Below, one piece after another: positions 31,745 to 55,741 of a stretch of 64,000 nt of DNA. The translations under genes and the position numbers were made by a program. How positions within the stretch are numbered: position 1 is the first letter of the stretch; each line of letters opens with the position of its first letter. The stretch is from Paramacrobiotus metropolitanus (lineage: Eukaryota; Tardigrada; Eutardigrada; Parachela; Macrobiotidae). Under the pieces are notes generated by a model. That model was not told the DNA's origin, did no database searches, and worked only from the letters and a program-made list of their open reading frames with translations. The stretch spans positions 1,612,001-1,676,000 of the forward strand of contig NW_026570234.1 in NCBI RefSeq assembly GCF_019649055.1, given 5' to 3'.

Positions 31745-32318
31745 TGTCGTGTATAAGCGTTCACGCCGATTAAGGCTCCATGAACAATCTTTACTCTTCC
31801 ACGCCTGTAATGCTCAATCGGTAGGCACTCGTACTCTCAAACTGTAACAGAAGAACTATGGTGGAAATAAGACGAACGAATCAGGAACACCGAAGATCAG
31901 GAATCCCTCAGGAACGAGCTAACCACAACTTCCGGTCGTAAGTCCTGTGTGGATCGGCAAGAGCTAGGACGATTGTGTCACGAGCAAACCTGTATACTAA
32001 GCGATAATCCGGGAACAACTATGCACTTCAGTAGGAACAAGTATTGCTGTCTCTTTATCCAATACACATCACAGTTCACAACGCTAGGAAATTGTAATTA
32101 GGAAGCAGTCTCAGAAGTAAATCTCAGACTACTGATACCGATATTAGGCATCACCAGAACTTATATAGACTTTGCGTTATGACATCATATACATCGCTAG
32201 TAAAAGAGAACAGCAAATCACAGCATTGATTGACTAGATTATCCGTTATGTTGCAGGTGGAAGGCGGACAGTCAGCATCCGTACGTACTCCGGCGTATGA
32301 TCCTACTCCCATACGTCA
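31745..32318 (-). repeat. LTR (3' LTR of the giant element)
   Basis: 574 bp, starting TGTCGTGTATAAGC and ending CCATACGTCA on the plus strand. Preceded by CAAG (31741-31744). Confidence 0.95.
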
Positions 32319-32326
32319 CCCCCACG
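32319..32326 (-). promoter_or_regulatory. Polypurine tract next to the 3' LTR
   Basis: On the minus strand GTTCGTGGGGG abuts the LTR start TGACGTATG, the position of the plus-strand primer in LTR elements. It is short and G-rich. Confidence 0.65.
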
Positions 32327-32979
32327 AACGATGCTTGGCCGCGCCAAAGTAAACAATCCATCCCGCAACATCCCAGTGCGATTGTGCACTTCCACCCATC
32401 CTGATCCCGATCCACCGCACAATCCACGCGTCCATCCGATGCCCAATGTGACTGTACGCCGCGATTCCAGAGAGTTAGTGTGTGAAACCCTTGGCGAAGA
32501 GGCATCCGGAAGTCCACGGGTTTGGCAGGGCGGAGGTCCAAGGATCCAGGAAGGCGAACTATGAATTACTAATACGGTGCCGTGTGAGTTTAGATAGTGT
32601 TTTGTATGTACAGTATACGGCATAAAGCTTTATTAATTGTGAAACTAAAATCTTAAAATGTGATTATGTGGAATTCTGTAGAACTATGCATTAAACGAAC
32701 GGGACCGCGATAACCAACAACCAGTAGTATTCTTACGAATTCTCGAGTACTACATCATCCAGTAACAACGGTCAACAACAACAAACAAGCAAAAATATCC
32801 GCATAAAAATCATGAGCACAAATTACTGGTAGATGAGAGCAAATTTTAAACCAGCAAAAGAATATCAGTAGCAACAAGATCAACACGGCTTTGGTAAAGC
32901 AAAATCATTAGACAACACCAGGCCAGTAAAAAGGCGAGATCAAAGAAAGCAAAAGATCAAGGACAAAGGTGAGTCAAGG

Positions 32980-33783
32980 TTACTTGCCAGCACTGGGAGC
33001 CAATGAAAACAAACCGGTGATACCAGAGCCAGACGCAGCAGCATCCAAACGGCGAGAAACGTCAGCAGCCATCTGTCGTCGGCGATCGGCATCCAATTCC
33101 CGCTGCTGTTGCTGAGCCAAATAACCAGGCACAAAATTATGTTCAGCAGAACCAACAGGACCGGAAGGCGCAGACGGCGCACGTGGGCGATCAGCCGGAG
33201 AACGGTCGCGGGCATCGCGGACAATCGATACTTCAGGTAGTGGCAAAACATTTGGTGGCAAACCGGGAAATTCAGCGTTCTGCGGGGCTTGCTGCTGCAC
33301 AGGCGGAATGACAGCCAGAGGGACAACAACAGCATTCAAGGCTGGTGGGCCATGTAGATTGACAGCAGGGTTGACACCATTGGGCTCACCTGCAGCCACA
33401 TTTCCGTTGCCTTGGACCGGATTCGGTGCATTCGCTGCTTGGTTGCCCGGGTCGTCAACCTCCATGTTTGCGGCGGCAGCTTCCACTGGAGCAACTGGGT
33501 GAGCGTCTCCATCAGGTACTTCAATAACTTCCGGTGCGCCCAGAGGTCGGCCATTACGACGCCAATGATCGTTTCCACGACGCAAGTTATTGTCTCCAAA
33601 ATTCCTATGATTTCCTCGGCCGTACGGACGAAAGTTGCCACGGTAAGCACCACGGGCTCCACCCCTTCCTCGGTGATTATAACCGGCATTATACTGTTGT
33701 TGCTGCTGGTTAGAAGACGAATGGAAGATGGCGTCTACTAACTTATCAAAAGCACGGTTAGGATCAATAGGCGGCATGCCCAA
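32980..33783 (-). CDS. Accessory protein, RGG- and proline-rich, low complexity
   Basis: 267 aa, the accessory frame nearest the 3' LTR. It opens with MGMPPIDPNRAFDKLVDAIF, then a Gln run and an arginine/glycine-rich stretch (HRGRGGARGAYRGNFRPYGR) of the kind that binds RNA, followed by a Pro/Ala/Val-rich middle and an Arg/Ala-rich helical end. No fold or catalytic motif is recognised. The RGG region could bind element RNA or condense it; this is inference. A possible AATAAA on the minus strand lies near 32627. No resemblance to a viral envelope: no signal peptide or membrane segment. Confidence 0.6.
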   Translation of the reverse strand: MGMPPIDPNRAFDKLVDAIFHSSSNQQQQQYNAGYNHRGRGGARGAYRGNFRPYGRGNHRNFGDNNLRRGNDHWRRNGRPLGAPEVIEVPDGDAHPVAPVEAAAANMEVDDPGNQAANAPNPVQGNGNVAAGEPNGVNPAVNLHGPPALNAVVVPLAVIPPVQQQAPQNAEFPGLPPNVLPLPEVSIVRDARDRSPADRPRAPSAPSGPVGSAEHNFVPGYLAQQQQRELDADRRRQMAADVSRRLDAAASGSGITGLFSLAPSAGK

Positions 33784-34299
33784 CTAATGAAAACTAGTGA
33801 CCTTTTAACACGAAAAGTAAAGAGAAAAAGCGTTAAAATCACAGTCTACACACAGCGAAAATCCAGCATGCCAGGAGGCCAAAACGAAAAATCCACAATG
33901 CCGATTTCTGCACACTACGCGCAAGTGATTTTATACACGTCTGCTAAAGCGAGATTTTAAAGTGCGGAAGATTCCATACAGGTAGAAAAACAGCCAATCA
34001 GCGCTTCGCGCTATATCCTTTTAATTCAACGTAATCGAAGATCAGATCTATCCAGGTACAATGAGAGATTTAACACTGATAGCCACAGCACAGCGGCAAA
34101 ATATTAAACGACCAGTTCAATGACTCAGCCCAGCGCATAAAATTGAAAAATAAAATTTCGGACAAAAACTCCAATAAAATTGTATGATTTCGAGAGACAA
34201 GGTAAACACTAAATGCAATTCTTAATACTAAAACAAAAGGAGACATCGTCAGATCAGGGCGAAAGGGCAATTAAAGCAATACAGCCGACAGCGGCAAAT

Positions 34300-35828
34300 T
34301 CACAATTCATCAGAATGTGGCTGCTGGTTACCATAGACTACTGGTTCCGCAAATTTAGGCGAATCTTCACGCACAACAGCGGCAACAGGTGGCACAGCAG
34401 AGACAGCTGGCTGCAGAGACGGCAGCGGATCAACATCCATTTTCTCCAGATCGAATCCATGATTACCACCACAATCAACTTCCATATCAGCGTTCTCGTC
34501 GGTTTCGACATCAGCACACTGATCAGGGGACAACACGGCCGAAGGATCCTCACGATCTTCCCCATCATCCGAAACGGAAACTTCACTCGGCGCAGAGGAC
34601 GAGGACGGCGAAACCTCCTTGTACTTGCGCTTTTCCCCACGAGTGCGAAAATTATATGGCCCAGCAGAAGTGGATGGCTGCGGTTCAGCATTCTCTACGG
34701 CACAAGCATCAGCAACCGCTTGACGCGCAACCGCATCCTTCTCCTGTCGTTTCCCCAACTCTTCAAATAAACGAATAAAAGCAGGGTGAAGATAAAGGAA
34801 TTGGCGTCGTAATTCAAACGCGAGCTCGGTAGGTAATTTCATAGTGATCGAGGACAAATCATAACGATTAATCAATTGGCCATTACAAAACAGAAAACGA
34901 GACAAATAAAGCCGAGGATAATAACGATGGAAGCGATTTAGGCCAGGAAAATAAGCTGAAGAAATAACCATCTCACCGCGCTTATCCGCAACAGCCATTC
35001 TTGGAAACACTCCGGAATGCGCTCGTTTACGAGCCGTCTGTTTGGTCTTGAAGACCGGCCGCGGGGCATCCGGGTTATACGGTACATAGAGGATGCCACC
35101 TTTACGCAAATGATCCTCATCTAAATACAGCAAAAATAGCCATAAGCCTAGGCTTAAATTGATCGTAACAGCTGCAACACCAATCGCGAGAAAGCTGAAA
35201 GCAACAACACAGGGAGCGAATATCAAGCAATTGAAATCAGGGCTTTCCCAGAAGCAACGTGTGCGTAAGGCAACCAAGTGAACAACAAGCGACTCCATAA
35301 AAACCACAACAACGGCAAACACGGCACAATACCTCGCTTTGCTTTTACAGACGGAGTCTCGGAAGACGATGGCTCTTCTTCTGTCAAGTCTGGAGTTCCC
35401 AGGTGTCTCTCCGCCTGCGTCTGCGGTTTCTTCGGTGATGGCTGACGGATCTCAACGTCAGGGCTAGCAGGGAATAATCCTCTTCGAGCCTGGCGGCGAA
35501 CCACAGCAGCATTGCGTCGCAAAATTGTTCGTCGCCGCTGTGCATCATATCGGCGCTGCAAAGCATGAACTATCGCATCTGCCCAACTCGTTGGAGGTTG
35601 CTGAGCCTCTGCTGCACTCACCGATCCCGATGACCCAGAAGATTGCGCAGAAAACACTGGTTGGGCGGCGGTACGGCGAGAGACTCGAGATCGAGTGACA
35701 CGCGATGAAGAACGGGCTTCATCGCTGTCCGGAGAATAACCAAAACTCAGCCCTGCTGTTGCACGACTCGGGCGCGGTGTACGAGACACAGTTTTCCTCA
35801 CAGTCGCTTTCTTCGCGGAAGGCGACAT
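34300..35828 (-). CDS. Accessory protein with one intron (438 aa), basic N-terminus, unknown function
   Basis: Two coding segments, 35828-35333 and 35120-34300, flank a probable GT-AG intron with matching phase. The N-terminal part is Ser/Arg-rich with basic patches (MSPSAKKATVRKTVSRTPRP, RSSSRVTRSRVSRR), as in chromatin- or nucleus-targeted proteins. The middle (GGILYVPYNPDAPRPVF, LFCNGQLINRYDL, LELRRQFLYLHPAF-like) looks like a globular domain I do not know. The C-terminal part is acidic and Ser-rich. The middle resembles the accessory frame at 42552-43247 in layout (NG..., then a leucine-rich helix pair), so the two may be paralogues; this is weak. The intron lies in the element's own sense direction. 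Confidence 0.6.
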
Positions 35829-36436: not shown

Positions 36437-37811
36437 ATGTCCGCACAGCCTGTAGGACCAACTGAAAAGCCTCTCCCTTCGCCCGAAGCAGATGCGATTG
36501 AACACTACGAATACTGGAAGGGACGAACTCGCGAATCAGTTCAGCTTGCCATGGCGGAGCCTCTACAGCCAAACGAAACCATCCGAGACCGTCGACAATT
36601 AGCGATGCATACGGCAGCCCACGCGTGCATTCTTGAAGCTGAGATTACGGGATATTATGTGGACATGTCATCTATCAAGAAATTCGTTGTGGAAATGCAC
36701 GATGATTTCACAGAAGAACGAGTAGATTTCTTCCTTGGCGACGCTATCAACGCTGGTATCTTGCTCAAGAAGATGAGCCGCGACGGGCGCTTTGTCCTAG
36801 AAGTCGCCGAAGAAGTCAAGAATAACCGCGATCCCGAGACGAAGGTTATTGATACGACGAGCAAGTTTCGTCGGATGATTCGAGTAATCCTCTACCACGG
36901 TCGATACGCCATGTCGCGCACGGAAATCCAACACTGGATCTGTACATTCGACGTACAGTTGCAGGACGTGGACTACTGGCTGGAGCGCGGACTACGCCAA
37001 CTGGTTAACCAGAAACATGTCGTCGTCGTGTATGGGAATCTTTTCGTGGACAGCTGCATCGACTTGTGGCTACGAAGCATTCGCGGTTGCTGTCTCTGCA
37101 CCACTCTGGCCCAGACCATCAGTATGTATTACGTATTTTTCGAAGCAGCATTCTTGATACTTACATTTTAAAATAGCACAACAACGCCGCCTACTGGAAA
37201 TTACGTTGTCTGCCGTAATTTTGACCAAAACGTTATAAATTATAGATATCAAAATGGGCACGATGAAGGTGACAGTCAACGGAAGAGACACAGAGCAACA
37301 CTTTGCCGATTGCAGCTTCGGCTACGTGGGACAAGACGGGGATTTGGTTGTCGATGGCGTCATGGAGCGGCTGGACGCAATCGAGCCCGAGAAGAACAAC
37401 ACCACCAACGTAAATCTGATAATCCGGGCTAACAAAGACGGGCGCATTGAGAGAGAACCAATTATCACGCTCACTCAACTAAAAGCTATGGGCGGCCGTC
37501 CTAAATATGTTCCCCGATCGAAAAGTACGGATACCGAGAAGAAAGGCCAGAAGACCAAGGAGAAGGCCGAAAAGCCTGACAATGAAGCGAGCACTGCAAA
37601 GCCGGATGCTATTAAAAAGCCAGACGCAATCGACAAATTACTAGAACAAGTCGAACGCGAAAAGGATATTATGGATAACTGCAAGGCGCTGGTAAATACG
37701 CTGAAGGCTCGAGCGACGATGGATGCTAAACATATCGCGTATATCCGTGAGGCTCTAGAACAGCGTCTTGCCAACTTAAAAACTGCAAAGGAAAACTTGG
37801 ATCTGGATTAA
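36437..37811 (+). CDS. Opposite-strand spliced gene inside the giant LTR element (416 aa)
   Basis: Two exons, 36437-37121 and 37246-37811, join in phase across a GTATGT...TATAG intron of 124 bp. The start MSAQPVGPTEKPLPSPEADA is the first ATG of a long frame. Residues about 60-135 (ILEAEITGYYVDMSSIKKFV, then ERVDFFLGDAINAGILLKKM) and 145-210 (VILYHGRYAMSRTEIQHWIC, then VDYWLERGLRQLVNQKHVVV) look like two repeats of a small helix-rich fold with a C-terminal hairpin, as in winged-helix domains. The second exon carries a compact part (VNGRDTEQHFADCSFGYVGQ), a lysine-rich linker and a C-terminal coiled-coil-like helix (DKLLEQVEREKDIMDNCKAL). It is the only accessory gene opposite to gag-pol. Function unknown; a DNA-binding role is inferred only from the predicted fold. 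Confidence 0.65.
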
Positions 37812-38272
37812 AACAGCGGCGCAGTAGTACGCGCTATTTTGTCCGCGGCTGTTTGGTAATTTGAATCTGATTTTCGGCCGACTTTTGTTTCTTCCGTTTA
37901 ATTTTTTAATCTCGTTGAGTTGATCTCATCAATGTCTTAACAAGCAATTCGCATAATTCCGTACAGATTCTCATATAGTCATTAATTTTGCTGGTCGAAC
38001 AGATCTTAATTCGAGTGTTTAATTTGGATTCGTGCAGCATTTGAATAACCGCAATAAAATCGGTGTAACAGAATGCGCAATCATAACAACAGTGAATTCC
38101 AGTACAGAGTGAGAAATTAACCACTTAAAATCAATTATCACACCTGGAACCGTGAATCAAATGCTAAAAACAATTTTAATATTCCATCTTGGGAATAAAG
38201 TTACAGAAACCACCATGGAAACGTAAAAAGAATAGAAAAGAACCTTTAAAACTTGCAAAATGTGTATTCACG

Positions 38273-38343
38273 CAGGATTGAACCTTGCATCTAGGTGGAC
38301 AACTAAATCCTGCTCTTGCCCATACGCTAGCATGGCTATACCA
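38273..38343 (-). other. tRNA-like unit 1 (A-box and B-box)
   Basis: Minus strand: A-box TGGTATAGCC (38334-38343) and B-box GGTTCAATCC (38275-38284), about 59 nt apart. A cloverleaf is not convincing. Confidence 0.45.
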
Positions 38344-38555
38344 CATTTTACTTTTATTTTGGCAATCACCAAAGGCGCTGTACTACGAAAATTCACAATA
38401 GAAGGAGGATTCACCACCGTATTAGCTGATAAATCTAAGATTTCACCCTCATAATGAGCGCAAAATTCGTGCCGGCTGCGGGAATATTCCCACGAGAGTG
38501 CCAACAAAAATATAAAAACGAAAAAGTAGGATGTCAAAATATGCAATTTAGTTTT

Positions 38556-38632
38556 AAGGGGTTTCGAACCCGGAACCTTCATTGCACCTGTTGTTGTGGT
38601 TCAACAGTTCAGTGCACTACGCCACTACAGTC
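38556..38632 (-). other. tRNA-like unit 2
   Basis: Minus strand: A-box TGGCGTAGTG (38615-38624) and near-consensus B-box GGTTCGAAACC (38560-38570), 54 nt apart. CTGTTG and CAACAG form a stem at the anticodon-arm position. An oligo-T run (TTTTT) follows within about 60 nt. The acceptor ends do not pair. Confidence 0.55.
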
Positions 38633-38769
38633 TGCGAAGTTAGACTTGAAATTCGCTCCTCGGAAATGATCATAAAATTGCCAATCTCAAAGCCAACATA
38701 ATACTGCATATAAATTTAAAAGTATAAAACCGAAAAAAGAAGGTTTTTAAATTAAACGAATTAACTCTT

Positions 38770-38842
38770 GGAGATTTGAACTCTAGACCTATAGGAAGCG
38801 GGTCGGTATGGATTCTCAGTCAAGCCACTACGCCACAAGGTG
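38770..38842 (-). other. tRNA-like unit 3
   Basis: Minus strand: A-box TGGCGTAGTGG (38825-38835), 11 of 12 to the pol III consensus, and B-box-like AGTTCAAATCT (38772-38782), 54 nt apart. CTTG before the A-box can pair with CAAG after the B-box. CTTCTTTTTT follows. Confidence 0.55.
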
Positions 38843-38869
38843 CTCTACGCTTAAGCCGAATTAGAATTA

Positions 38870-38895
38870 ACACCGGAAGCGCCATGTCGTGTATA
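38870..38895 (-). other. Internal copy of the LTR end / primer-binding-site junction
   Basis: The plus-strand blocks ACACCGG and CGCCATGTCGTGTATA (16 nt exact) match the junction of the 5' LTR and priming site at 55152-55178, with only the 3-4 bases between them different. It sits between tRNA-like units 3 and 4. Confidence 0.7.
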
Positions 38896-38987
38896 TTTAA
38901 TCAGACTGCAAGAGGCATTAAACCTTGACACTTCTTCCCACAAAGGTACAAAAATATAGGGCAGGAAAAATGTAGTTTTTAACATGC

Positions 38988-39075
38988 AGCATGCAACCCT
39001 GAGATTAAGACTAGCCGTTAAGGAGGTAGAACATGAGGCGAATGGCCATCATTGATAGCCACTGAACTACAAAGT
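38988..39075 (-). other. tRNA-like unit 4
   Basis: Minus strand: A-box TAGTTCAGTGG (39059-39069) is excellent; the B-box position (GGGTTGCATGC) is degraded. Box spacing is 71 nt. Confidence 0.4.
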
Positions 39076-39261
39076 CATTCGAATACAGACAAACAGACGA
39101 CCAAGTGCAATGTTAACCATTGAGTGTGTATACAATTTTACACCCAGCTCTTTGAGTTTAATTCTAATATTCTGGGGACTGTTGACAATACTTTTCCCAA
39201 GACGAAAACAAAAATATAGAACGAAAAAAGTAAGTCTTCTCAAAATTGCAAATTAGCTGTA

Positions 39262-39340
39262 AGGGACTTGAACCCGCACCCGTTTCATTTCCCCTTTGCT
39301 GCAGTTCAACGGTGCAAAGCACTATACTACGCTGTTCTAC
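39262..39340 (-). other. tRNA-like unit 5
   Basis: Minus strand: A-box TAGTATAGTG (39320-39329) and B-box GGTTCAAGTCC (39264-39274), 55 nt apart. A GGG/CCC T-stem is present. CTTTTTT follows. Homologous to unit 2 over about 170 bp, including the downstream sequence. Confidence 0.55.
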
Positions 39341-39473
39341 GACAGTTATTTTTGAATTCGCTCATCGGAAATGATTGTAAAATTACAGCGGTCAACGGCA
39401 ATGCACATTTGATGCTATTTTAACAATATAAAACGCAAAAAAGAAGGTTTATGAAAATGCTTTTTAATTTTTA

Positions 39474-39555
39474 ATGGATTTGAACCCAGGGCCAGCAGTA
39501 GGAAAACGGATTCGCCTGGTATTGTCCTCACAGCTTAACCGGTCGACTACAAGAG
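39474..39555 (-). other. tRNA-like unit 6
   Basis: Minus strand: A-box TAGTCGACCGG (39539-39549) and B-box GGTTCAAATCC (39476-39486), 63 nt apart. Followed by CTTCTTTTTT. Downstream sequence homologous to that of unit 3. Confidence 0.5.
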
Positions 39556-39725
39556 TCATCGGCAAAAATAGCACTAAAAACACTGCTTACGGTGTTAATA
39601 CTCGTATCGACGCCTCTCAACGGTGATTCACCCAATATTTCGCATATTAAGTCCCATGAATAAAAATATAACGATTCATAAAATAAAAACCAAAAATGAA
39701 GATATTTACAAAATCGCGTTTTTAT

Positions 39726-39792
39726 GTGGACTGGAACCTCCGACCTCCAATGACGAAGCAACGGAAGCCTCTACTATACTAGCGGGGTCGCT
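39726..39792 (-). other. tRNA-like unit 7
   Basis: Minus strand: A-box TAGTATAGTA (39772-39781) and B-box GGTTCCAGTCC (39728-39738), 43 nt apart, the spacing of a normal class I tRNA. The opening GACCCCGCTAGTATAGT is similar to tRNA-Asp/Glu genes, but arms and acceptor are imperfect. Confidence 0.5.
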
Positions 39793-40325
39793 CTACGTAA
39801 ATATTGAAAAAGCGTCAGCACCGAAAACGTACACCTAGTCAATGGTAGATGTGCCAGAAGCCTACCCACCCAAGCAACCAACTGCGTGAAAACCAATACA
39901 ATGTCCCAACGGAAGTGGAGTCTCATGCGGTTATGCGTTACATTGTCCAAAAATTACCGACAACAGCAGCGACAGCGGCTACTTAAACTTTATTAAATTC
40001 GCAACTCTCCTAATAAATGACTAAGAGAACCCGCAACAGAATACAACGGAACATCCATAATGTGCAGACCGTACGCAACTAACCAAGCAAAAAACTAAAC
40101 GATAAAATGCTCGGACTAGCCCAACGAAGATAAAGAGTGGAAAACTAAAAAGATCCACAATATGAGATCAGCCGCAAGTAAGTACAATCATAAGGGTAAA
40201 AGAGTAGAAACGCGTAAAATCCATACGCTTAAAGTAACGCGCTACACACACTCCATTCACAACAGAAGGTACTCTGGGTCACCGTGCGAAATCCACCTCC
40301 GAAAAATCCATCCAAGGATGACACA

Positions 40326-44382: not shown

Positions 44383-47300
44383 TCAGCCGACGGGTCTCTT
44401 TACGCTTTTGTCGTTCATCTGGTTCACAAGTCTTTCCACAGGTTTCACCACACGCCCGGAGCGGGTTTTAAGCAATGGAACCGCTTCCATCTGGTTATCC
44501 AGATATTCAGCGTACTCAGCATCAAGGCGCGACGATGCTGAATCAACGGATGGAATCACCGGCGGCGGCGCGGGCGCCTCAACTAACTCATCGGGGCATT
44601 CCTTCTCCACACAATCGAGCAACTTCGGTAAGTGCTCGTCTTGCAGTATAGTATCAACGTCGCGGAAATTATACGGCTTTAAACGGCTGACATGTACAGT
44701 GTCAGTTTTGACATTTCCGCGCCGGTTACTTTTAACTACATAATGCACTGGTCCTGACTGACGCACGATTTCCCATCCAGCAGTCCAACGGGGCATAAGG
44801 GATGGATTTTTCCCCACTTTCGATGGTAACACGTATACCAAAACTTGATCTCCCGGTTTATACGATACATGTGAAATATTTGCATCGTAACGAATTTTGT
44901 CCTTAAGTTTATGGCGAAACTCTTCTGCATTCACCAAGTCCAGGGCCTCACCAAGGCCGCGCTGCATCTGCTGTACATATACATGGGCGGGAATCACAAA
45001 ATCCTCTTCAAACGGCAGGAAGTTATTTATCGGTAAGCGCATCTCGGTGCCGTGCATCATGAAGAATGGTGAGCGGCCCGTTCGCTCCACAACCTCACTG
45101 TTAAATGCCGCACAAAGTGCTGGGAGGAATATATCCCAGTCACTTTGCTGCTCATTCACATACTTCGCTAGCGCCTTCTTGATTTCCCCTACGCGTTTTT
45201 CAACCAGACCGTTACCCTGCTGGTGGCCTGACGCCGTCGGTGCGTGAGCAACACCAGCGAGAGCGAGAAGCTCTCGGAACATCTCAGACATGAAATTACT
45301 GCCGCGGTCTGAGGTAATGTGTACAGGCATACCGAAGACCGTGAGAATACGACGATAGAAGAACAACGCCAATGTGGCGGCATCATTTCTCTCAACTGCC
45401 TCAGCCACAATGTATTTGCTCCCGTAATCAACAGCGATTATTATGTTTTTATTTCCAGATTCCGTCGTTGGGAGGGCCGGAGCAACATCGATGGCCCAAA
45501 CTAACCGAGGAGGAACCGTCGGATTGGACTGGAGAGCACCGGCCGGTGCCGTAGCAAGAGGATTTTGTGCAAGGCACGCCGGGCAAGAAGCGCAATAACT
45601 TTTAACAGACTCAAACATACGAGGCCAATAAAAATACTTGTACATCCTTTTATAGGTGGCCAGGACGCCCAAGTGTGCTGCTAACGGGGAATCATGGTTA
45701 TCCTGAAGGAACTGGAGCCGCCAGTGAACAGGTACATACATGCAGTAATAGATCTTCCGGTTTAATTCGAACTTGTAGTATACAACGCCCTGTTTCACCA
45801 CAAATTTGTTTAGATGTAATTTCTCGTGGTCTGACATCTTTTCCTTTTTATTCTCTAGGAGCAGTCGCCATCGGATAATTCGCGCATCGCGAGACTGCTC
45901 TTCAGCCCAGTATGAGGCCTTGTCATCCGTAATCAACTTTTGGACTTTATCTGCGTCAAATGCCTTCATGTCTGCCTCGGACACTGCCTTCACTTCCGCC
46001 GACATCATTTCAAAGCGAATGTCCACATAATCTCGCTCCAGAACCGCGAAGCAACATTCAATCATCGCCATATCACCGGCGAAAGGGTAAGTTTGCCGAT
46101 AATCGAATTCGATGTCCGAGTCGTCGGAATCAGGTTCTGGCTGTTCACCTGGATTTCTGCTTAAGGCATCAGCAATAACGTTCTCTTTGCCAGGTATGTG
46201 TACCGGTTTAGTATTAAATTGCTGGATATACAACGCCCAGCGCCCAAGGCGGCCAGCGGCATCGCGCATATTATTTAAAAACACTAATGCTTGATGATCC
46301 GTTTGTACTTCGAACTGATAATCGGACAAATAATGTTTCCATTTCTTTAAAGCACAGATAACTGCGTAAGCCTCAAGCTCGGTAGGGAAGTAGAGCCTTT
46401 TCTGCGTTTCAGTCAACTTGCGGCTTAGATACGCGATAGGACGCCAATTTGTCGGCACATCCGTCGGTTTATCCTTGGGACATTGCATAAGAACTGCACC
46501 CACAGCAATAGTACTGGCATCGACAATAACTCGCGACAAAGCCTCCGGATCATAACGAGCCAAGACCGGCGCCGTCACCAAGGCCTCCTTCAATTGTTCC
46601 ACAGACCTACACTGATCCGTTCCCCATTCAAAGGTAACTTTTTTAGGAATCAACTTTTGAAGCGGCTCCGCAATCTCTTGAAAATTCTTAATAAATTGAC
46701 GATAATATCCCACCATGCCTAGGAAACGCAGTATATCTTTTTTGTCTTTTATAGGGCCAAATTCCTTAACCGCCTGGATCTTCTCTGGATCAGTACTGAT
46801 ACCGAACTGGTCAACCGTGTGACCCAGGAACGTTATTGAATTTACAAATAATTCTGTTTTTTCAGGATTAATGGTCCAGCCGCATTCCTGGAGCCGCAAA
46901 AAGAGCTCCTGTAAGTCTCGCATATGATCAGCCAGGTTTTTACTGAAGACAATAATGTCATCAATAAAAACTAATACGTTCCTCCACTTCATGTTCGCAA
47001 GCGTCAAATCCATGGCGCGCTGGAAAGCCGAAGGCGCGTCCTTCATCCCAAAAGGTAAGACTTTGTATTGGAACGTGAACTCTTCACCAACCATTGTCGT
47101 TTTGCATCGGTCTTCTGGTTTGATTTTAATTTGCCAAAAGCCACTCTTTAAGTCTATCTTGCTAAAGACCGTTGCTTTATCGAGGGCATTTAATATGTCG
47201 TCAACTCTGGGAAGCGGGTAACTGCTGCCCATTAATCTTTCGTTAAGCTTACGGAAATCCACGGTTAAACGCCGGGATTTATCCTTCTTCTTCACTATGC

Positions 47301-47784
47301 AGATGGGACTGCCCCATGCCGAATTTGTTGGCTCAATTATACCGTCTTTAATCATTTCCTGTGTTTTAGCTTGGAGCCATTTTCGATCCTCGAACGACGT
47401 GCGATACGGAGGAGTTCTGACCGGCAAACTCGTGCCTGTATCCACTGAATGCTCATATATGGTACAACAACCCACAGGACGTGTTTTAGTCGGTAAGACA
47501 GACTTCGCTTGATAAAATATAGCTTTTAATTCATCCTTGCTGGGACAGATATTACCAACTTTGATTTTTGCGAAAGTTTCCTCTGTTTCAGGATCAACGA
47601 CACTAACGGCGGGTGGCGGCAACTGCATCGCCACACATTCATTTATTTTCTCCGGTGACCGGAACACCTCCCTCCTTACTGGGAATGCCACTAATTGCCT
47701 CTTGACAGTTCTCCAGGAACTCCGGAGAGTCCATTTGATAAACTGCGTCCACGAGCGCGACTTCGCCAAGGTTGGTTTCTTCAT
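44383..47784 (-). CDS. pol: Ty3/gypsy pol: reverse transcriptase, RNase H, integrase
   Basis: A 1133-aa frame. RT occupies roughly residues 130-330, with SKIDLKSGFWQI and the catalytic FIDDI box. RNase H follows (VIVDASTIAVGAVL, LEAYAVI, TDHQALVFL) to about 530. The integrase zinc domain (H...H, CASCPAC) lies near 700. The integrase core has the three acidic residues in AVDYGSK, SDRGSNF and NGLVEKRVGEIKKAL. A GPY/F-like module (AGWEIVRQSGPVHYVV) lies near 1010. RT before integrase makes this Ty3/gypsy, not Copia. It reads through in one frame and looks whole. Protease is encoded separately upstream. Confidence 0.95.
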   Translation of the reverse strand: MKKPTLAKSRSWTQFIKWTLRSSWRTVKRQLVAFPVRREVFRSPEKINECVAMQLPPPAVSVVDPETEETFAKIKVGNICPSKDELKAIFYQAKSVLPTKTRPVGCCTIYEHSVDTGTSLPVRTPPYRTSFEDRKWLQAKTQEMIKDGIIEPTNSAWGSPICIVKKKDKSRRLTVDFRKLNERLMGSSYPLPRVDDILNALDKATVFSKIDLKSGFWQIKIKPEDRCKTTMVGEEFTFQYKVLPFGMKDAPSAFQRAMDLTLANMKWRNVLVFIDDIIVFSKNLADHMRDLQELFLRLQECGWTINPEKTELFVNSITFLGHTVDQFGISTDPEKIQAVKEFGPIKDKKDILRFLGMVGYYRQFIKNFQEIAEPLQKLIPKKVTFEWGTDQCRSVEQLKEALVTAPVLARYDPEALSRVIVDASTIAVGAVLMQCPKDKPTDVPTNWRPIAYLSRKLTETQKRLYFPTELEAYAVICALKKWKHYLSDYQFEVQTDHQALVFLNNMRDAAGRLGRWALYIQQFNTKPVHIPGKENVIADALSRNPGEQPEPDSDDSDIEFDYRQTYPFAGDMAMIECCFAVLERDYVDIRFEMMSAEVKAVSEADMKAFDADKVQKLITDDKASYWAEEQSRDARIIRWRLLLENKKEKMSDHEKLHLNKFVVKQGVVYYKFELNRKIYYCMYVPVHWRLQFLQDNHDSPLAAHLGVLATYKRMYKYFYWPRMFESVKSYCASCPACLAQNPLATAPAGALQSNPTVPPRLVWAIDVAPALPTTESGNKNIIIAVDYGSKYIVAEAVERNDAATLALFFYRRILTVFGMPVHITSDRGSNFMSEMFRELLALAGVAHAPTASGHQQGNGLVEKRVGEIKKALAKYVNEQQSDWDIFLPALCAAFNSEVVERTGRSPFFMMHGTEMRLPINNFLPFEEDFVIPAHVYVQQMQRGLGEALDLVNAEEFRHKLKDKIRYDANISHVSYKPGDQVLVYVLPSKVGKNPSLMPRWTAGWEIVRQSGPVHYVVKSNRRGNVKTDTVHVSRLKPYNFRDVDTILQDEHLPKLLDCVEKECPDELVEAPAPPPVIPSVDSASSRLDAEYAEYLDNQMEAVPLLKTRSGRVVKPVERLVNQMNDKSVKRPVG

Positions 47785-47851: not shown

Positions 47852-49810
47852 TTAAGACGCCGTCCAGTAATACGGCGTTTTATTTGACTCTGGTATTTTT
47901 CCTTCGTAGAGAAATGGCTGGGTGTACAGGTATTCATCTTGAAATTCCATGAACTGTTCGTCAGACATCGATGTCGTTGCGCGAATAATTCCCTGTGAAT
48001 GGGGCTGAATTATAACCGGCGAAGCTGGAAACAGCTCCATTTTAAAACAGTCAATTGGACCGGGTTCTGGCTCAAAGCGGTAAATATCATGTTCTACCGA
48101 ATTAACCTCAACCTGTGCTTGTGCCTGTTTCAGATGGGCGTCCCTGTACGCCAGCTCGATGACATCCTTCGAATACACGCATGCCGGGATATCAGTGGAC
48201 TCACGGACGTCCTGAGATCGTTTGGGCAAATTTTTAGCCGTCGGTTGTTGTAGCACCGGTGCCGGCTGCACCGTCTCAGCTGACATTTGGCTTGCCGCCT
48301 CTCTTTCTGCATATTCCCGCCGAATTCTGCGGCTGTAACTGGACTTTTTACGCCTAGGAGAATTCCTTGGACCTTCCGTTGGCAGTTCGTAGTTTCCCAC
48401 GGTAGGTTGTACTGCACTAGTCGCCACAGTCTCCCTCAATACTTTTTGCTCATGAATTTCGTTCCAAATCTTCCACTGTTCATTGATATCAACGTCTACT
48501 GGGGAGTCGTAAGAGGCCCTGACTGCCGAAGGAAGAAACTCCGAAACTTGCTCACTAATCAACTTATGGTTTTGCGGTGAGTTAGACACGATTTGAGAGT
48601 TTATTTCTCTTTGCTTCTCCGCCTGCTTATCTTCGTAGGAAACTGGACAAGGACCAACGCTTATCGGCGGCATCCCCTGTGCAGGAATGAAGTTTCCATT
48701 CTTGAATTCACCTGCTGGAGCCGGGTTATCAACGGAAAAGGTAACCTTACGTTTTCCTGTAGCTTTCTGTGCGGCCAACTGTTCATTTCTTTTAATTGTT
48801 TCAAAATGCCGCCGGTCATTAATTGAATTTCGACAAACATCACAGTTTTTCTCATACCGTTCGATTTCTATTATACAGTCCGGCCAGTAAAATAATTTCA
48901 CCAAGTACGGATATAGCTTTTCATGCCGGCCATACGCTTGCTTATGAATTAAAATTTCGTGGAAACAGGCAATTAATTTCCGTCGCCATTGGTGTGGCAC
49001 GTAAATTCTCGGACATGCACCAGAATGATCCGGTACTCTGCACAATATCCCTTCGCATATTACGAGTCTGTTAATCTCATACTTGGTAAAATTCGTATTA
49101 GCGTGCGACGGCTTCTTGTACATTTTGTACCACATCCGGCTATCAACACACTGCTGTTGAGTTTCGCGCCAAAACTGCGGATCTCGGAACCGTTGCTCCG
49201 AAGGGAATAAGCCCTTATCCTGCGGCCTATCCATCGGCGTCATCCATTTCTTCAACTCTGGATTGCGTGCCATGTAAGAGGGATAATCATGGACTTCATC
49301 AACATCTCTGCGATCACGCTCAACAGGTATGACATTTAATAATTTATTGTCTATGCTAAGGCATTCAACCGATTTGGAAGATTTCCGCAGAACACCCATG
49401 TATAGGTATTGAGCTGCAGGATGCTGCTGAAGTACTGCGTCAAGCGAAGAAATTTGGATCGGAAGCTGCAAGGGATCTTCACCCCCACGAACTTGACTGG
49501 ATCCGGAAGGAGGCACAGGGCTGACTGATGCCGAAGACGAGTTACTCGTGCTACTCGAGCTGCTTGCCGGTGGCGGCGGGGAAATTCTTTCACGTTTAAA
49601 CTGCGGCTGAGAAGACGCCTGTTCGCACCCCCACGAACTTGACTGGATACTATTTACAATAGATTCACCGCCTCCCCCACGAACTTGACTTTGTTCTGGG
49701 TTTTTCTCCACCTTAATTTCCTTTTTAATTGTAGGTTTAACCGGTTCATCGGCAACGGAAGCTGCCATGGGCAAATATTGCCGGATCATTTCCTGTACCA
49801 CGCTCCGCAC
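47852..49810 (-). CDS. 652-aa protein between protease and pol, with H2C2 zinc module
   Basis: Lies where gypsy elements normally have nothing. The N-terminal third is Ser/Pro-rich with three SQVRGG or near repeats. The middle has HEILIH ... YPYLVKLFYWPDCIIEIERY ... CDVC, an integrase-like H-x4-H / C-x2-C zinc domain without a catalytic core. The C-terminal third is basic then acidic and ends KTPYYWTAS. It probably reaches pol by splicing or read-through, as is usual for the family, or is its own product. Function unknown. Confidence 0.7.
   Translation of the reverse strand: MRSVVQEMIRQYLPMAASVADEPVKPTIKKEIKVEKNPEQSQVRGGGGESIVNSIQSSSWGCEQASSQPQFKRERISPPPPASSSSSTSNSSSASVSPVPPSGSSQVRGGEDPLQLPIQISSLDAVLQQHPAAQYLYMGVLRKSSKSVECLSIDNKLLNVIPVERDRRDVDEVHDYPSYMARNPELKKWMTPMDRPQDKGLFPSEQRFRDPQFWRETQQQCVDSRMWYKMYKKPSHANTNFTKYEINRLVICEGILCRVPDHSGACPRIYVPHQWRRKLIACFHEILIHKQAYGRHEKLYPYLVKLFYWPDCIIEIERYEKNCDVCRNSINDRRHFETIKRNEQLAAQKATGKRKVTFSVDNPAPAGEFKNGNFIPAQGMPPISVGPCPVSYEDKQAEKQREINSQIVSNSPQNHKLISEQVSEFLPSAVRASYDSPVDVDINEQWKIWNEIHEQKVLRETVATSAVQPTVGNYELPTEGPRNSPRRKKSSYSRRIRREYAEREAASQMSAETVQPAPVLQQPTAKNLPKRSQDVRESTDIPACVYSKDVIELAYRDAHLKQAQAQVEVNSVEHDIYRFEPEPGPIDCFKMELFPASPVIIQPHSQGIIRATTSMSDEQFMEFQDEYLYTQPFLYEGKIPESNKTPYYWTAS
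49482..49684 (-). repeat. Three internal copies of the polypurine-tract motif
   Basis: CCCCCACGAAC on the plus strand (49482-49492, 49628-49638, 49674-49684) equals the 11 bases that adjoin the 3' LTR at 32319-32329. Each internal copy continues TTGACT. Confidence 0.75.
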
Positions 49811-50265
49811 AAACTCCTCATCACGCTGATCAGATCCCTTTTAATCAGTGCAGCCTTGACTGGTGTAGTTTCTTTAATTTCCGTTTTCACCGGGACATCG
49901 ACAACTTTGTTTTACTGGTGGTGTCGACTGAGTCAAGCGAGGCCACTCCTGCTTCGCTTTTGCAAGTGTAAGATACAAATTTCTGGGGTCAGCTTTTGCC
50001 AGAATTAAATGAGCTGACTCATACGGTACGAATTTTGCCTCCTTAGCGACACCGATTCGCTCGGTCAGCATCAACGCTGGGATCGCGGGCGACGGCTTAA
50101 CTCCCACAGGGGAATTAATGGATCAAAATCGTGAGCACGAATAACGTCAGACATCAGGTGAGTTTCACGGCGTAAAATGCCGGAGCATTAGACGGTCTGC
50201 GCGAGAGACGCCAAGTCATCGTATTCATATCTAAAATAAAAGGCTTTGTAGCTAAAAGTCTAAAC

Positions 50266-51285
50266 CTAAAACAACGTGGTCTCTATCAAAGTGGAACTCA
50301 CAAGCATAGCGTGCTCAAACGCCATGCCAAATTCATGGATAGTGACTACCACAGAAAGCGGCTCAATCAACTGCCTTCCTTGATAAGCTGTATGTACAAC
50401 CCTGCCTTTAATGTGATCCGGACAGCGGTGAATATTTAATTTTAAATCTTTAGCCATCTTCAATGACATAACAGAAATACTAGAGCCCGTATCCAGCATA
50501 GTCTTCACTTTCTGATAATTTATATCGATTACAGAATACCAAGCCTGGGCATCCAGCGTCGGCAACAAGCAAACGTGATCTGCCAACGGATATTGCGAAA
50601 AATCCTGAACTTCCATTTTATTGCACTGTGGCGGCGACGTGGACAAACCAGCCGGTAAGTCCAACTCCATCATATTAATCTGCTGCTGCGGGTTATTGTA
50701 ACGTGCCAACAATTCTGCAGATGGCTCATACTGACGGGGAAGTACAAATTGATTCGTACAACCAGCTGCAGGATGAAGACCATGACAGCGGAAACAAATC
50801 TCGACTCCGCGATTTGTTCGCCATTTATCCTTCAGGATATTTCGTTCATCAAACGGAGGTTGACTACCGGCCTGCTGATTTTGCCGGTAATTCTGGTTAT
50901 TTTGCTGACGATTATTATTGTTGTTGAAACCCCCGCGTCCGCGATAATTACTATTATTATTATTATGGCGGTAATTTCCACGATTATTACCGCCATCATA
51001 ATTGTTGTTATTCGCAGGGCCATTCTGTTGGTACTGCTGATCGAAATTCTGCACCGGTTGTTGGAATTGCGGCTGCATAACCGGCATCATTGGATTCATC
51101 ATTTGAACTGGGACAGGCATAGGAGCCTGCATAGGAATTGGTTGAGGGAAAGTCTGCGCAAATTGTACCGGGTGTTGTTCAACAAATGGTGGCTGTGAAT
51201 ACACCGGAACTGGAACAAATTGCGGCTGGGGAACATTCAGGACGGGTTGGATTGGAGCCACCGTATTCTGCGGCTGCGGAATCAC
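50266..51285 (-). CDS. pro: Protease and nucleocapsid-like region of the giant element
   Basis: A 339-aa frame abutting gag. It begins Pro/Gln-rich, then Asn/Gly/Arg-rich (RGRGGFNNNNNR), then has a Cys/His cluster (CFRCHGLHPAAGC) like a degenerate zinc knuckle. Near residue 270 is an aspartic-protease active site, MLDTGSSISVMSLKMA. The position at the gag end fits read-through, as is common in this family. Confidence 0.8.
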   Translation of the reverse strand: MIPQPQNTVAPIQPVLNVPQPQFVPVPVYSQPPFVEQHPVQFAQTFPQPIPMQAPMPVPVQMMNPMMPVMQPQFQQPVQNFDQQYQQNGPANNNNYDGGNNRGNYRHNNNNSNYRGRGGFNNNNNRQQNNQNYRQNQQAGSQPPFDERNILKDKWRTNRGVEICFRCHGLHPAAGCTNQFVLPRQYEPSAELLARYNNPQQQINMMELDLPAGLSTSPPQCNKMEVQDFSQYPLADHVCLLPTLDAQAWYSVIDINYQKVKTMLDTGSSISVMSLKMAKDLKLNIHRCPDHIKGRVVHTAYQGRQLIEPLSVVVTIHEFGMAFEHAMLVSSTLIETTLF

Positions 51286-53699
51286 CGTTTCCGTGTACGA
51301 GCGGGAGTATCCACCTCGATTATTGCCGTAATTTCCGCGGCCTCCCCGGTTCGAATAATAATTTCCTCTCTGCGACGAGCCACCGCGGCCGCCTCGATTT
51401 TCATAATTCGAATTATTATTATTATTATTGCCGGCACTTCTCGGTTCTGAAGGGCACTTTTCTGAGTTGATTCAGGTGCCTTTTTATCCTTATTCATTCG
51501 TTTCCATAGCTTCTCACACTCTTGTAGTTTCTTTTCAAATTCCGAGTAGTTTTTAGGCGCTGCATTATAAATTTCTCGGAACCACGCCGGTCGATGCTCC
51601 TGCACGCCATCAAGAAGTGCTTCCACTTGCTCTTCATCCGATGTTTTTAGTTCCTCAAACCATGGGAGGAAACTATCCAGGTAAGCGCGAACTGGTTCAT
51701 AAAATTCCAATTTGCGGTTATTCATTTTTCGGCGAATATCGGCTTTAGAAAGAGAGCCGTTAAAGTGCTCTACAATCGCCGGCTTAAAGAAATCTGACCA
51801 CGATTTGCCTTTGTTGTCCTTCCAGAATTTTTCAAACCATTGAAAGGACGGACCGGTGAATGCACCGATTACTCTGCGACACGTTGTCTCATCATTCCAG
51901 TTATTCGTGGCTCTACATTGTTCAACATTCATGAGCCACCTTTGAATTTTTTCCGGGTGAGCATCATCAAAGGCAAGTAGCTTCATGCCTCCTACTGTTT
52001 TATCGCTGTCTTTTTCCACAATTTTTGCTAAAAGCTCAACAACGCTTTCTTGTGTAAGCGTCGTTCTATCCGAAATTTGGGTCTGTTTATTTAGCCATTC
52101 CTCCAGCTGAGGATTTCTGGACAAAGATTCATTACTCGCCGTGCTACTAGGGCGACGGTGTTCATCCTCCATTAGGGCATCATCCATTAGTTCATTTTCT
52201 GTATCGGAACTATCCCTATTTTCTGTTCCTCGCATCTGGCGACCAGATTCGTCAGCTGTTCTTTTCAGAATTTGTTGGCGTAAGTCTGTTGAGCCATTTT
52301 TCCTCTGTTTGGCAGGTGCCGTTTCCCTTGGAATTTGACTTTCTGAGGCTGAACGCGGCATGGCCTGAGCCTCCGAGAATTCGACTCGTGATTCCTGTCT
52401 AGGCCTGCGCAAGATGCCAGCTGGATTACTACCAGTAGCTAAAGGCTGATCCACGTATGACGAAAAATTTTGGGGATTAAATGGTGTAAAGGGGGAAGGA
52501 CGTAATACATCTCCTGTCGCTACCGGCGCTTCCCTTTGAAAGTATCCTTCACCGCCACCAAGAGCAGCATCTGTATTTCGAAGCCGACGAAGTTCGTCAT
52601 ATGCTTGCTTTAGATCCACTTCCATCTTGGTAAGTTGATCTTGTTTTTCATGCCATTCCCTTCGGCATTGCGCATTTTCTTCATACAGTCGATTACACCT
52701 TTCAGACTTTTCATATGCGTCAGCCTGTGCTGTATTTTTCGCTTGAATCGCGTTCTCACAGTTATCACATCTTTTGTCCTTTTTCGAGTCTATTAATTCC
52801 TTTTGGGCCTTTTGGACATTCTCTCGCTCTATAGTCAACAGACCCTGCAACCTCTCAATTTCCTTTTGGGACGCATCATCCTTTTCCTTGGGAATATGCA
52901 TCGGGCCGACTGAAGACTTGTTATTCAGCTGCACTCTCACTTGTGTGAGTTCACGCTGTAGAGAGTCTTCCACATCTTTAGCCCGTCTCTTTTCATCATC
53001 CAAATCTTTGGTAAGTTTCGTAACCAGGTTCTGCGCATCCGTCAAATTTTTATTGGTTAATTTATGCGCATCTTTCTCAGAATTACAATCTTTCTGAGCT
53101 TTCGAGAGCTTTTGGTTCAAATCAGTTATTTGTTTCGTTAAATCCGGTGCTGGTTGCGCACTGAGGCCATCAATCGTAGCTTTCGCGTTTGAAAGATCTC
53201 TCTGAGCATCTTCCAACTGTTTTTCAAAATTACGATTCGTGTCTTTTAAAGTATCGCGCTCATCTTGCATTGCATTAAATGCAGCCTCCGCATTTCTGTT
53301 GGCTTGTCTTAGACTGTGCAAATTATCATTCGCAATGCGTATTTCGTTGGCCAATCTGTCATTTTCTATTTGTTCATTTTCAAATTTAACACGCATCTCA
53401 TTGAAATCGTTTTGGAATTTCAATTTTTCGTTTCGTTCCGCATCTACACGAGCGTCTAAAGACATTGTATTACCCATTTCATCTACTTTTGTTTTTGTAG
53501 ATGCAATGAGCGTGCGGAGACTTTGGATCAATACGGGCATAGTTTGCCGAACTATCAAGCCCACGTCCTGGTCAGTTTCTGCCGCAGCTAACTGCTCATC
53601 AACTTCCCTAGCTTGGGTAAGGAAGTCCTCATCTGGTTGCTCAAAATCTTTTTCTGACACAAAACTATGTAATTTGAGCTGTGCCGGGTGGAATGTCAT
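51282..53699 (-). CDS. gag: Gag with long coiled coil (805 aa)
   Basis: Residues about 60-370 form a long heptad-rich coiled coil (LKFQNDFNEMRVKFENEQIE and following), unusual for gypsy Gag. From about 560 comes a retrotransposon-gag capsid-like domain (HPEKIQRWLMNVEQC, GPSFQWFEKFW, EFYEPVRAYLDSFLPWFEEL), then a basic end. The coiled coil may drive assembly of a large particle, which a 24-kb genome would need; this is inference. Confidence 0.8.
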   Translation of the reverse strand: MTFHPAQLKLHSFVSEKDFEQPDEDFLTQAREVDEQLAAAETDQDVGLIVRQTMPVLIQSLRTLIASTKTKVDEMGNTMSLDARVDAERNEKLKFQNDFNEMRVKFENEQIENDRLANEIRIANDNLHSLRQANRNAEAAFNAMQDERDTLKDTNRNFEKQLEDAQRDLSNAKATIDGLSAQPAPDLTKQITDLNQKLSKAQKDCNSEKDAHKLTNKNLTDAQNLVTKLTKDLDDEKRRAKDVEDSLQRELTQVRVQLNNKSSVGPMHIPKEKDDASQKEIERLQGLLTIERENVQKAQKELIDSKKDKRCDNCENAIQAKNTAQADAYEKSERCNRLYEENAQCRREWHEKQDQLTKMEVDLKQAYDELRRLRNTDAALGGGEGYFQREAPVATGDVLRPSPFTPFNPQNFSSYVDQPLATGSNPAGILRRPRQESRVEFSEAQAMPRSASESQIPRETAPAKQRKNGSTDLRQQILKRTADESGRQMRGTENRDSSDTENELMDDALMEDEHRRPSSTASNESLSRNPQLEEWLNKQTQISDRTTLTQESVVELLAKIVEKDSDKTVGGMKLLAFDDAHPEKIQRWLMNVEQCRATNNWNDETTCRRVIGAFTGPSFQWFEKFWKDNKGKSWSDFFKPAIVEHFNGSLSKADIRRKMNNRKLEFYEPVRAYLDSFLPWFEELKTSDEEQVEALLDGVQEHRPAWFREIYNAAPKNYSEFEKKLQECEKLWKRMNKDKKAPESTQKSALQNREVPAIIIIIIRIMKIEAAAVARRREEIIIRTGEAAEITAIIEVDTPARTRKR

Positions 53700-53740
53700 T
53701 GTTCCACCACGAATACTTTACTTGCTCTTGTTTCAGATCC

Positions 53741-54379
53741 TCAGGAGATATCCGCTTTATCCGCAGCCGCCAACGCTATTAAATTATTGTCCGACTGGGA
53801 CGACTGGGGTTCTGTCTGACTCTCGGCCACGCTTGGGGTTTCCGATATGGGCTCATCCAGTATCGCACCGGATGCCTGAGCTGGAATTCTCTCCTTGGCA
53901 CCGCGCGTGACGCGCTCATTTGCTGCTTGTTTTTTGGGAGTTTTTCCGGTTGCTTTTGACGCTGTGAGTGCGGCTTGAGCCGCCTCTCTGCGTCTATTCA
54001 AATCTTCCGTATATTCTGGCAGCCACCTGTTTGCATCCTGCAAGGCAGCTTTAAACTGCTCATCAGTAATGTCCAGGTAAGCTTCAGGGATACATCCCTC
54101 GTACTCAATCCAAGGTTTAAAATGTGCTGGTAATCTCGTTTTAGAATTTAAGTACCGCCTGATTTCCTGGTAATCAATCCATGACTTCCCACAGAATGCA
54201 TCTTGTGCTTCTGGTGGTTCGACATTAAGAGCGATGTACATTAAATTCAACGGGATTTCCTTTGCATTGAATTTGAACCTTGTCTGAGCTCTCGATCCAT
54301 CGTACGCCCCAATAATCACTTTGTTATCTGGGATCTTACGCGGTGGTGGGCGATTTCTAGGAATCGAACCGCCCGACAT
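53741..54379 (-). CDS. First frame of the giant element, 212 aa, unknown
   Basis: Lies 5' of gag. MSGGSIPRNRPPPRKIPDNK, then a compact part (KSWIDYQEIRRYLNSKTRLP, EAYLDITDEQFKAALQDANR), then an Ala/Lys/Ser-rich tail. It could be a matrix-like part of Gag made separately. No family recognised. Confidence 0.55.
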   Translation of the reverse strand: MSGGSIPRNRPPPRKIPDNKVIIGAYDGSRAQTRFKFNAKEIPLNLMYIALNVEPPEAQDAFCGKSWIDYQEIRRYLNSKTRLPAHFKPWIEYEGCIPEAYLDITDEQFKAALQDANRWLPEYTEDLNRRREAAQAALTASKATGKTPKKQAANERVTRGAKERIPAQASGAILDEPISETPSVAESQTEPQSSQSDNNLIALAAADKADIS

Positions 54380-54399
54380 TTCTGCTTTTTATTTTAAAT

Positions 54400-55149
54400 A
54401 ACCTTTGCGGCTAATTAAAATAAAAGGTACAGCAGCGATTGTGCTACTGGTTCAAAAATTGCAATTGTGCAATTACTGTCTCCTCACTTCCCAATCCTCC
54501 TTTTAGGTTTGAATTGTTCAGTGAGTTTAGACACAGCGAACCTTTGCGGTTTCGACTGTAACAAATTCTTAAAATTACACTGCTGCACTTTGCGTGCTGC
54601 TGTAATTTTAGAATTCACAGGTCAATCACCGTTTGCCGGTGTTTACCTTTTTCACGGTCAACTCTCTCTAGCTGCTGATTTTGGCTACCGCTTGCGGCTT
54701 GCCTTTATCAGTCTGCTGGAGATCGTTATCTCACCTGGCCACTGACAATGGCTCGGTGCTTACTATCTGCTCTATCTGCAGGCCAGGTGCACTGACACTG
54801 CAGATTACACTTTACTCGCCGCGGTTACTGCTTTGCGCAGACAACCCGGAAATTACCCACACAGACACCAATAAATTGCACAGCCGACCTTTGAGGTTTC
54901 GACTGTTAAATTCCTACGGTCCAATTTAAATTAAATTAAATTAATTTAATTGGCGAGGAAGCTCACCAGTGAGGAAGCTCACAATTGCGAGGAAGCTCGC
55001 TAAAAATAAATTAACTAGGCCAGATCGGGAACGCTGACCTCCTTCGGCGTACCTTTGCGGTTCGACGCCTTTCTGTACGGACCACTTTTACCAATAAATT
55101 ACCATCAAACGTTCCACCAATAATTTTCTGTTACATCGGGAAAATTAAA
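54400..55149 (-). other. 5' leader of the giant element
   Basis: Non-coding between the priming site and the first frame. It contains GAGGAAGCTC repeats (near 54957, 54971 and 54989, plus strand), possibly leader structure or packaging sequence. No gene seen. Confidence 0.45.
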
Positions 55150-55167
55150 AGACACCGGTGGGCGCCA
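55150..55167 (-). promoter_or_regulatory. Primer-binding site
   Basis: Directly after the 5' LTR (minus strand) comes TGGCGCCCACCGGTGTC; TGG is the complement of a tRNA CCA end. I cannot name the tRNA. Confidence 0.75.
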
Positions 55168-55741
55168 TGTCGTGTATAAGCGTTCACGCCGATTAAGGCT
55201 CCATGAACAATCTTTACTCTTCCACGCCTGTAATGCTCAATCGGTAGGCACTCGTACTCTCAAACTGTAACAGAAGAACTATGGTGGAAATAAGACGAAC
55301 GAATCAGGAACACCGAAGATCAGGAATCCCTCAGGAACGAGCTAACCACAACTTCCGGTCGTAAGTCCTGTGAGGATCGGCAAGAGCTAGGACGATTGTG
55401 TCACGAGCAAACCTGTATACTAAGCGATAATCCGGGAACAACTATGCACTTCAGTAGGAACAAGTATTGCTGTCTCTTTATCCAATTCACATCACAGTTC
55501 ACAACGCTAGGAAATTGTAATTAGGAAGCAGTCTCAGAAGTAAATCTCAGACTACTGATCCCGATATTAGGCATCACCAGAACTTATATAGACTTTGCGT
55601 TATGACATCATATACATCGCTAGTAAAAGAGAACAGCAAATCACAGCATTGATTGACTAGATTATCCGTTATGTTGCAGGTGGAAGGCGGACAGTCAGCA
55701 TCCGTACGTACTCCGGCGTATGATCCTACTCCCATACGTCA
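55168..55741 (-). repeat. LTR (5' LTR of the giant element)
   Basis: 574 bp, about three differences from the other LTR, followed by CAAG (55742-55745). Confidence 0.95.

Follow-up and report, generated by a model that had tools for sequence, protein, structure and literature searches.

What has moved into a 64,000-nucleotide stretch of the genome of the tardigrade Paramacrobiotus metropolitanus (the window, within contig C14 of the 169.8-Mb assembly searched here), and does the large gene content of this insertion belong to it? The insertion occupies about 24 kb (positions 31745-55741), is read on the minus strand and is a gypsy retrotransposon by every gypsy feature examined. It seems to belong to an old retroelement lineage of unusual complexity and to be no accident of one insertion, since the genome holds dozens of related copies, most with the same accessory genes and many with the same array of tRNA-like units. 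Its structure, conservation, constraint and tRNA primer match are direct observations. We see an even chance that these animal retroelements are organized like a complex virus: a long polyprotein with integrase zinc fingers flanking pol would be joined by an internal two-way promoter, a spliced antisense DNA-binding regulator and a set of self-encoded RNA polymerase III (Pol III) RNAs, with U6 and perhaps others more tightly conserved than the neighboring protein genes.

Element boundaries and primer

The two long terminal repeats (LTRs) are 574 bp each, have the TG..CA ends of gypsy elements and differ by three mismatches (0.5%), and CAAG is found at both ends of the element. From these features the first-pass annotation had concluded that the whole 24 kb moved as one and that the insertion is young. 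Both conclusions stand, and three further copies carry identical LTR pairs. There are 41 LTR matches across the genome; among 12 copies, a 4-bp target duplication is present in nine and absent in two, and one copy lies at a contig end. The primer-binding site and 20 nt at the G-rich tract are invariant in all 12 copies examined. Two host tRNA-Lys(CTT) genes have a 3' end matching this site and one has a one-base variant. A self-encoded primer from the array was also considered and is not required, as the site pairs with host tRNA-Lys(CTT). A tRNA pattern with a fully paired GCCCACC/GGTGGGC acceptor occurs at 16 places against 9 in the control, none of them judged tRNA-like.

The antisense gene

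Downstream of the polyprotein, about 11.4 kb carry five sense genes and one antisense gene, p. In the predicted model of p, residues 135-207, the only part with fold matches, form a helix-strand-helix-helix-strand-strand arrangement, which is that of a winged helix; the match comes from one fold-comparison program. Protein searches with p returned two proteins, both from P. metropolitanus. No relatives were found in viral contigs, nothing among PDB sequences fell under E 0.7, and there was no confident Pfam match in a library that may lack the TRP28 model. We propose that p and gene cd would be expressed from the region between them through an internal two-way promoter, that the accessory regulators would act in the nucleus, and that Pol III transcription of the array would be directed towards the 3' end of p.

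An array of tRNA-like units

The array comprises seven units, U0-U6. A strict motif test required an A-box matching 6/8 positions, a B-box matching 7/9 and a T-run 28-36 nt further on, with 200 shuffles for reference. On the sense strand, U1, U2, U4, U5 and U6 pass (shuffle mean 0.09; antisense 0), with T-runs that begin 31-34 nt after the B-box. Antisense, the entire element gives one pass against 0.33 expected by shuffle. The matching stretch of a family D copy gives four passes against 0.15, and one 1.6-kb stretch of family E gives none. This is the array that the first-pass annotation had called tRNA-like.

The cores show 0.605 differences per site against 1.294 elsewhere in the region, a contrast equaled by 10 of 1,659 circular shifts. 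Over their whole cores, U0 and U6 are near-invariant: they differ by 0.05 and 0.11 per site, while the flanks differ by 0.81-1.19. When a 75-nt stretch of U6 was searched in the genome, the 40 scored matches (of 53 candidates) had 89-100% identity, a range retained in 10 matches whose p is only 72-83% identical. The U6 core lies near p in 39 of these 40, and the fortieth (C293) lies about 3 kb from a match to gene a.

The array could instead work at the level of DNA, with TFIIIC bound to its A- and B-boxes as a barrier where the sense genes and antisense p converge. We give this perhaps one chance in four. It would fit the position of the array between converging units, the lack of excess RNA structure, and the A- and B-boxes as the features that the units have in common. 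However, the near-invariance of U0 and U6 extends beyond the boxes over the entire core, and T-runs such as those of U1, U2, U4, U5 and U6 are required for transcription only.

Less probable still is that the units are functionless, tandemly duplicated remnants of a tRNA-derived short interspersed nuclear element (SINE). Aligned over 251 columns, the repeats of U1 and U4 agree at 72%, four of the seven cores have no clear conservation advantage over their tails, and tRNA-derived promoters are known inside LTR elements such as Helenus (available text of PMC10886601). Against this, no scored U6 match resembles a free SINE, U6 is kept where p has diverged, and the cores are less divergent than the rest of the array region.

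Polyprotein

The gag-pro-pol region is confined to the right part of the element (minus strand, 43.7-54.4 kb), as the first-pass annotation had stated. Its order of protease, reverse transcriptase (RT), RNase H and integrase is that of Ty3/gypsy, and the best relative among solved structures is Ty3 Gag-Pol (E 3.9e-97), in agreement with the original gypsy assignment. The N-terminal part, g1, has a pooled ratio of nonsynonymous to synonymous substitution (dN/dS) of 0.04 and 117 matches genome-wide; the gag domain spans residues 619-706 of the stop-to-stop frame.

Integrase zinc-binding-like domains lie on both flanks of pol within one polyprotein, and the domain at 43748-44353 shares the RT reading frame in other copies. 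The same arrangement is found by similarity in a family D copy. A literature search gave no precedent for it, and we know of no other element with such domains on both flanks of pol.

Judged by sequence comparison, RT is under extreme constraint relative to the accessory genes. The RT of family D has about 95% protein identity, against 72% DNA identity for pol. A module swap between families, considered for the 95% RT against 33% p identity of family D, was withdrawn in view of the 72% DNA identity of its pol; this gap is attributed to slow evolution of pol. To the right of the element (58364-59662, plus strand), a 432-aa open frame encodes a retroviral-type aspartic protease (E 1.4e-05) and is perhaps a fragment of another LTR element.

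Accessory genes

The first-pass annotation had placed at least six frames without a recognized family in the left block. The longest of these frames have 340 aa when counted from a start codon and 383 aa between stops. Codon-phase counts in 10 other copies give a coding signal here, and no accessory protein has a confident Pfam family; two plus-strand frames proved to be the exons of the single gene p. A membrane protein proposed at 34300-35451 had to be abandoned, its hydrophobic stretch being an intron of gene cd. The exons of cd lie at about 35828-35333, 35120-34977 and 34760-34300 (GT-AG borders by eye), with pooled dN/dS of 0.15, 0.06 and 0.26. Gene e (pooled dN/dS 0.15; 90 matches in the genome) is by its composition a probable RNA-binding protein. 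Gene a forms a single frame of 276-282 aa in seven of nine other copies and is split here. Among the best 8,000 candidates scored, a protein search with cd returned five proteins, all from P. metropolitanus; a search with gene a returned no relatives.

Genome size, spliced accessory genes and an antisense gene are virus-like, and an env-like region is described in Burro, a giant gypsy element (available text of PMC6431247). The element could accordingly be an endogenous virus with an unrecognized envelope, that is, an infectious tardigrade retrovirus, which we consider unlikely. A scan confined to the accessory proteins, gene cd included, found no strong hydrophobic segment.

Copies in the genome

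We scored 150 of 1,348 candidates in an RT search. At an RT identity of at least 94%, 56 of 66 matches have p 3-18 kb downstream, in antisense orientation in all 56, the orientation of the opposite-strand gene first annotated here; two of these pairs, about 17 kb apart, may belong to a neighboring copy. Among the 10 without p is C260, about 3 kb from a contig end. The link holds in two of three matches at 83-93%, in 5/19 at 69-79% (two decayed copies of this family with p at 92-94%, three with family E p) and in none of five at 61-62%. Since the link weakens with lower RT identity, the accessory set may be the mark of one gypsy clade in this genome, or may have diverged past detection elsewhere.

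Conversely, p matches of at least 62% identity were placed one by one. RT lies within 18 kb of 50 of these 58; five of the other eight are near gene a and three within about 4 kb of gene e (by eye). The first-pass annotation had treated the accessory suite as a family trait, to be doubted if copies lacked the left block and the block occurred as unlinked host DNA. The suite is shared across copies, only one of 11 others (C39) is missing the central part, with p, a, b, s, cd and the array, and all 58 p matches lie near RT, a or e. An ordinary gypsy element with a single capture of host DNA, a nested insertion or an assembly artefact might be suspected from the damage to this copy and from accessory proteins without a confident Pfam family, but it is contradicted by the comparison of copies, the pooled dN/dS and the RT-p linkage and is very improbable.

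Some copies are incomplete. C129 (most of pol gone), C11 (a, b and s gone) and C39 (most of the center gone) keep 4-bp target-site duplications, and their LTR pairs are 98.6-99.8% identical; they are possibly non-autonomous derivatives moved in trans, or post-insertion deletions. C54 and C37 have no matching target duplications and more diverged LTR pairs (98.3% and 95.5%), as if recombination between insertions had produced them. The window copy also has a mosaic of identities at 32.7-35.9, 39.2-39.7 and 43.2-44.2 kb. It shares 98-99% with C37 over 34.2-35.7 kb, and 96-99% with C52 in the tiles that begin at 32745, 35245, 39245, 43245 and 43745; many other copies reach 74-90% there. This mosaic looks like template switching between copies.

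Evidence against the proposed reading

Several results weigh against the reading proposed here. The model of p is modest (mean predicted local distance difference test score, pLDDT, 59.9), its predicted winged helix could bind protein as well as DNA, and the top fold matches include cullins. U0 and U3, which fall short in the strict motif test, were assigned by eye, and the cores without a clear advantage over their own tails are U2, U3, U4 and U5. No unit is recognized as a tRNA by ARAGORN or Rfam or shows a cloverleaf. Unit structure is no better than that of shuffles (z -1.36 to 0.83, seven units), and complementarity of the units to the element is at chance level. The polyprotein and gene a of this copy are frame-broken, and the dN/dS values were computed without a formal test. 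Detectable p accompanies only 5/24 RT matches at 61-79%, and the wider gypsy group therefore need not carry the set. Because C129, C11 and C39 have target-site duplications, their missing parts may not be needed in cis, or the loss may have followed insertion. We infer expression, the two-way promoter and the use of Pol III.

Related searches of the array gave the following. ARAGORN in mitochondrial mode makes four calls in the element, none within the array; Rfam matches near it are of unrelated kinds, under gathering scores, and were taken as chance. A common cloverleaf was sought across the units and none was seen, nor were miRNA-like stable hairpins in the seven units.

Table 1. Features of the element in window coordinates (dN/dS pooled over copies, no formal test)
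Feature	Position	Strand	Basis or remark
Target-site duplication CAAG, left	31741-31744	.	right partner 55742-55745
3' LTR	31745-32318	-	element oriented right to left
G-rich tract GTGGGGG beside 3' LTR, probable purine tract	32319-32325	-	conserved across copies
Gene e, RGG/Gln-rich	32980-33783	-	found in 11/11 other copies
Gene cd, three exons, Ser/Arg-rich and acidic	34300-35828	-	NCBI models P0003, P0004, P0006 mapped onto window
Gene p, two exons	36437-37811	+	GT-AG intron 37122-37245; predicted winged helix, residues 135-207
Array, seven tRNA-like Pol III-type units U0-U6	38240-39800	-	motif test, core conservation, U6 genome search
Cores U0, U1, U2, U3	38272-38334, 38558-38634, 38770-38844, 38991-39097	-	
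Cores U4, U5, U6	39262-39338, 39474-39556, 39726-39790	-	
Gene s, small, 91 aa	40326-40601	-	codon phase; dN/dS 0.07 (65 codons)
Gene b, acidic, most variable	41141-41794	-	codon phase; dN/dS 0.24
Gene a	42552-43429	-	dN/dS 0.06; weak helix-turn-helix model match, E 0.036
Extra integrase zinc-binding-like domain	43748-44353	-	Pfam E 0.0014, under curated cut-off
RT, RNase H, integrase (H2C2, core, C-terminal domain)	44383-47784	-	Pfam; Ty3 match
Extra integrase zinc-binding-like domain	47852-49840	-	Pfam E 0.00081, under curated cut-off; codon phase
RGG/Asn-rich stretch and aspartic protease	50266-51471	-	Pfam E 4.6e-05, under curated cut-off
Gag with coiled coil	51282-53699	-	weak Pfam match, E 0.024
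g1, polyprotein N-terminal part	53741-54379	-	95-100% identity in 11/11 other copies
Primer-binding site	55155-55167	-	13 nt complementary to host tRNA-Lys(CTT), CCA end included
5' LTR	55168-55741	-	LTR pair comparison
Target-site duplication CAAG, right	55742-55745	.	

Comparison with known systems

Published systems are compared here as the available text of each source describes them. The Retand lineage of plant gypsy elements has repeats and antisense open reading frames (ORFs) thought to bind DNA, and shares with the present element an antisense gene between pol and the 3' LTR, a long region there that often holds repeat arrays, and non-autonomous copies (PMC11963269). Its region measures 2.9-6.6 kb, against about 11.4 kb here, and its usual antisense domain is TRP28 (PMC11963269); five sense genes, tRNA-like units and an animal host set the present element apart. 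Burro, from planarians, is also a giant gypsy element of an animal, and it too has accessory frames and a single huge polyprotein (PMC6431247). Its MATH, BIR, ankyrin, BCL2-like and env-like parts were not found here, and the main text of that paper uses neither "antisense" nor "tRNA". In the proteins of our element, MATH, BIR, ankyrin and BCL2 gave no Pfam match with an E of 1 or less. Plant Ogre elements owe their size mostly to long LTRs, whereas here the LTRs are short and most of the length has coding signal (PMC6431247).

The array has likenesses in viruses and in other LTR elements. Bovine leukemia virus (BLV) has a type 2 Pol III cluster head-on to antisense Pol II transcription, but it is an infectious retrovirus that makes microRNAs (miRNAs), and the units here lack excess structure (PMC4992882). 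The tRNA-miRNA-encoded RNAs (TMERs) of murine gammaherpesvirus 68 (MHV68) are likewise tRNA-like genes of a virus, contain A- and B-boxes and are of the Pol III kind; the virus is a herpesvirus, and in its RNAs the tRNA-like part is followed by miRNA hairpins (PMC8223928). Helenus and Cassandra, terminal-repeat retrotransposons in miniature (TRIMs), have tRNA- or 5S-like Pol III promoter sequence (PMC10886601); these elements are short and non-autonomous and hold it in their LTRs, not, as here, in an internal array of a giant element. The main text of a tardigrade repeat paper, as available, does not mention Paramacrobiotus.

In the open-licence literature, no paper was found that joins an antisense ORF, a huge polyprotein, a Pol III cluster and tRNA-like RNAs. 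The initial statement that no described element has this set holds for the literature searched, with precedents for its parts in Retand, Burro and BLV. If the virus-like plan is true, this would be, to our knowledge, the first retroelement in which an antisense regulator occurs together with a self-encoded array of tRNA-like RNA genes.

The element shows that small animals can harbor an LTR retrotransposon which keeps many probable regulatory genes, on both strands and over deep divergence, together with small-RNA-like genes, a complexity otherwise linked to herpesviruses and infectious retroviruses. As some copies in this tardigrade are very young, the selection that maintains genes in a genomic parasite becomes testable, as does the use of Pol III RNAs by a retroelement against silencing.

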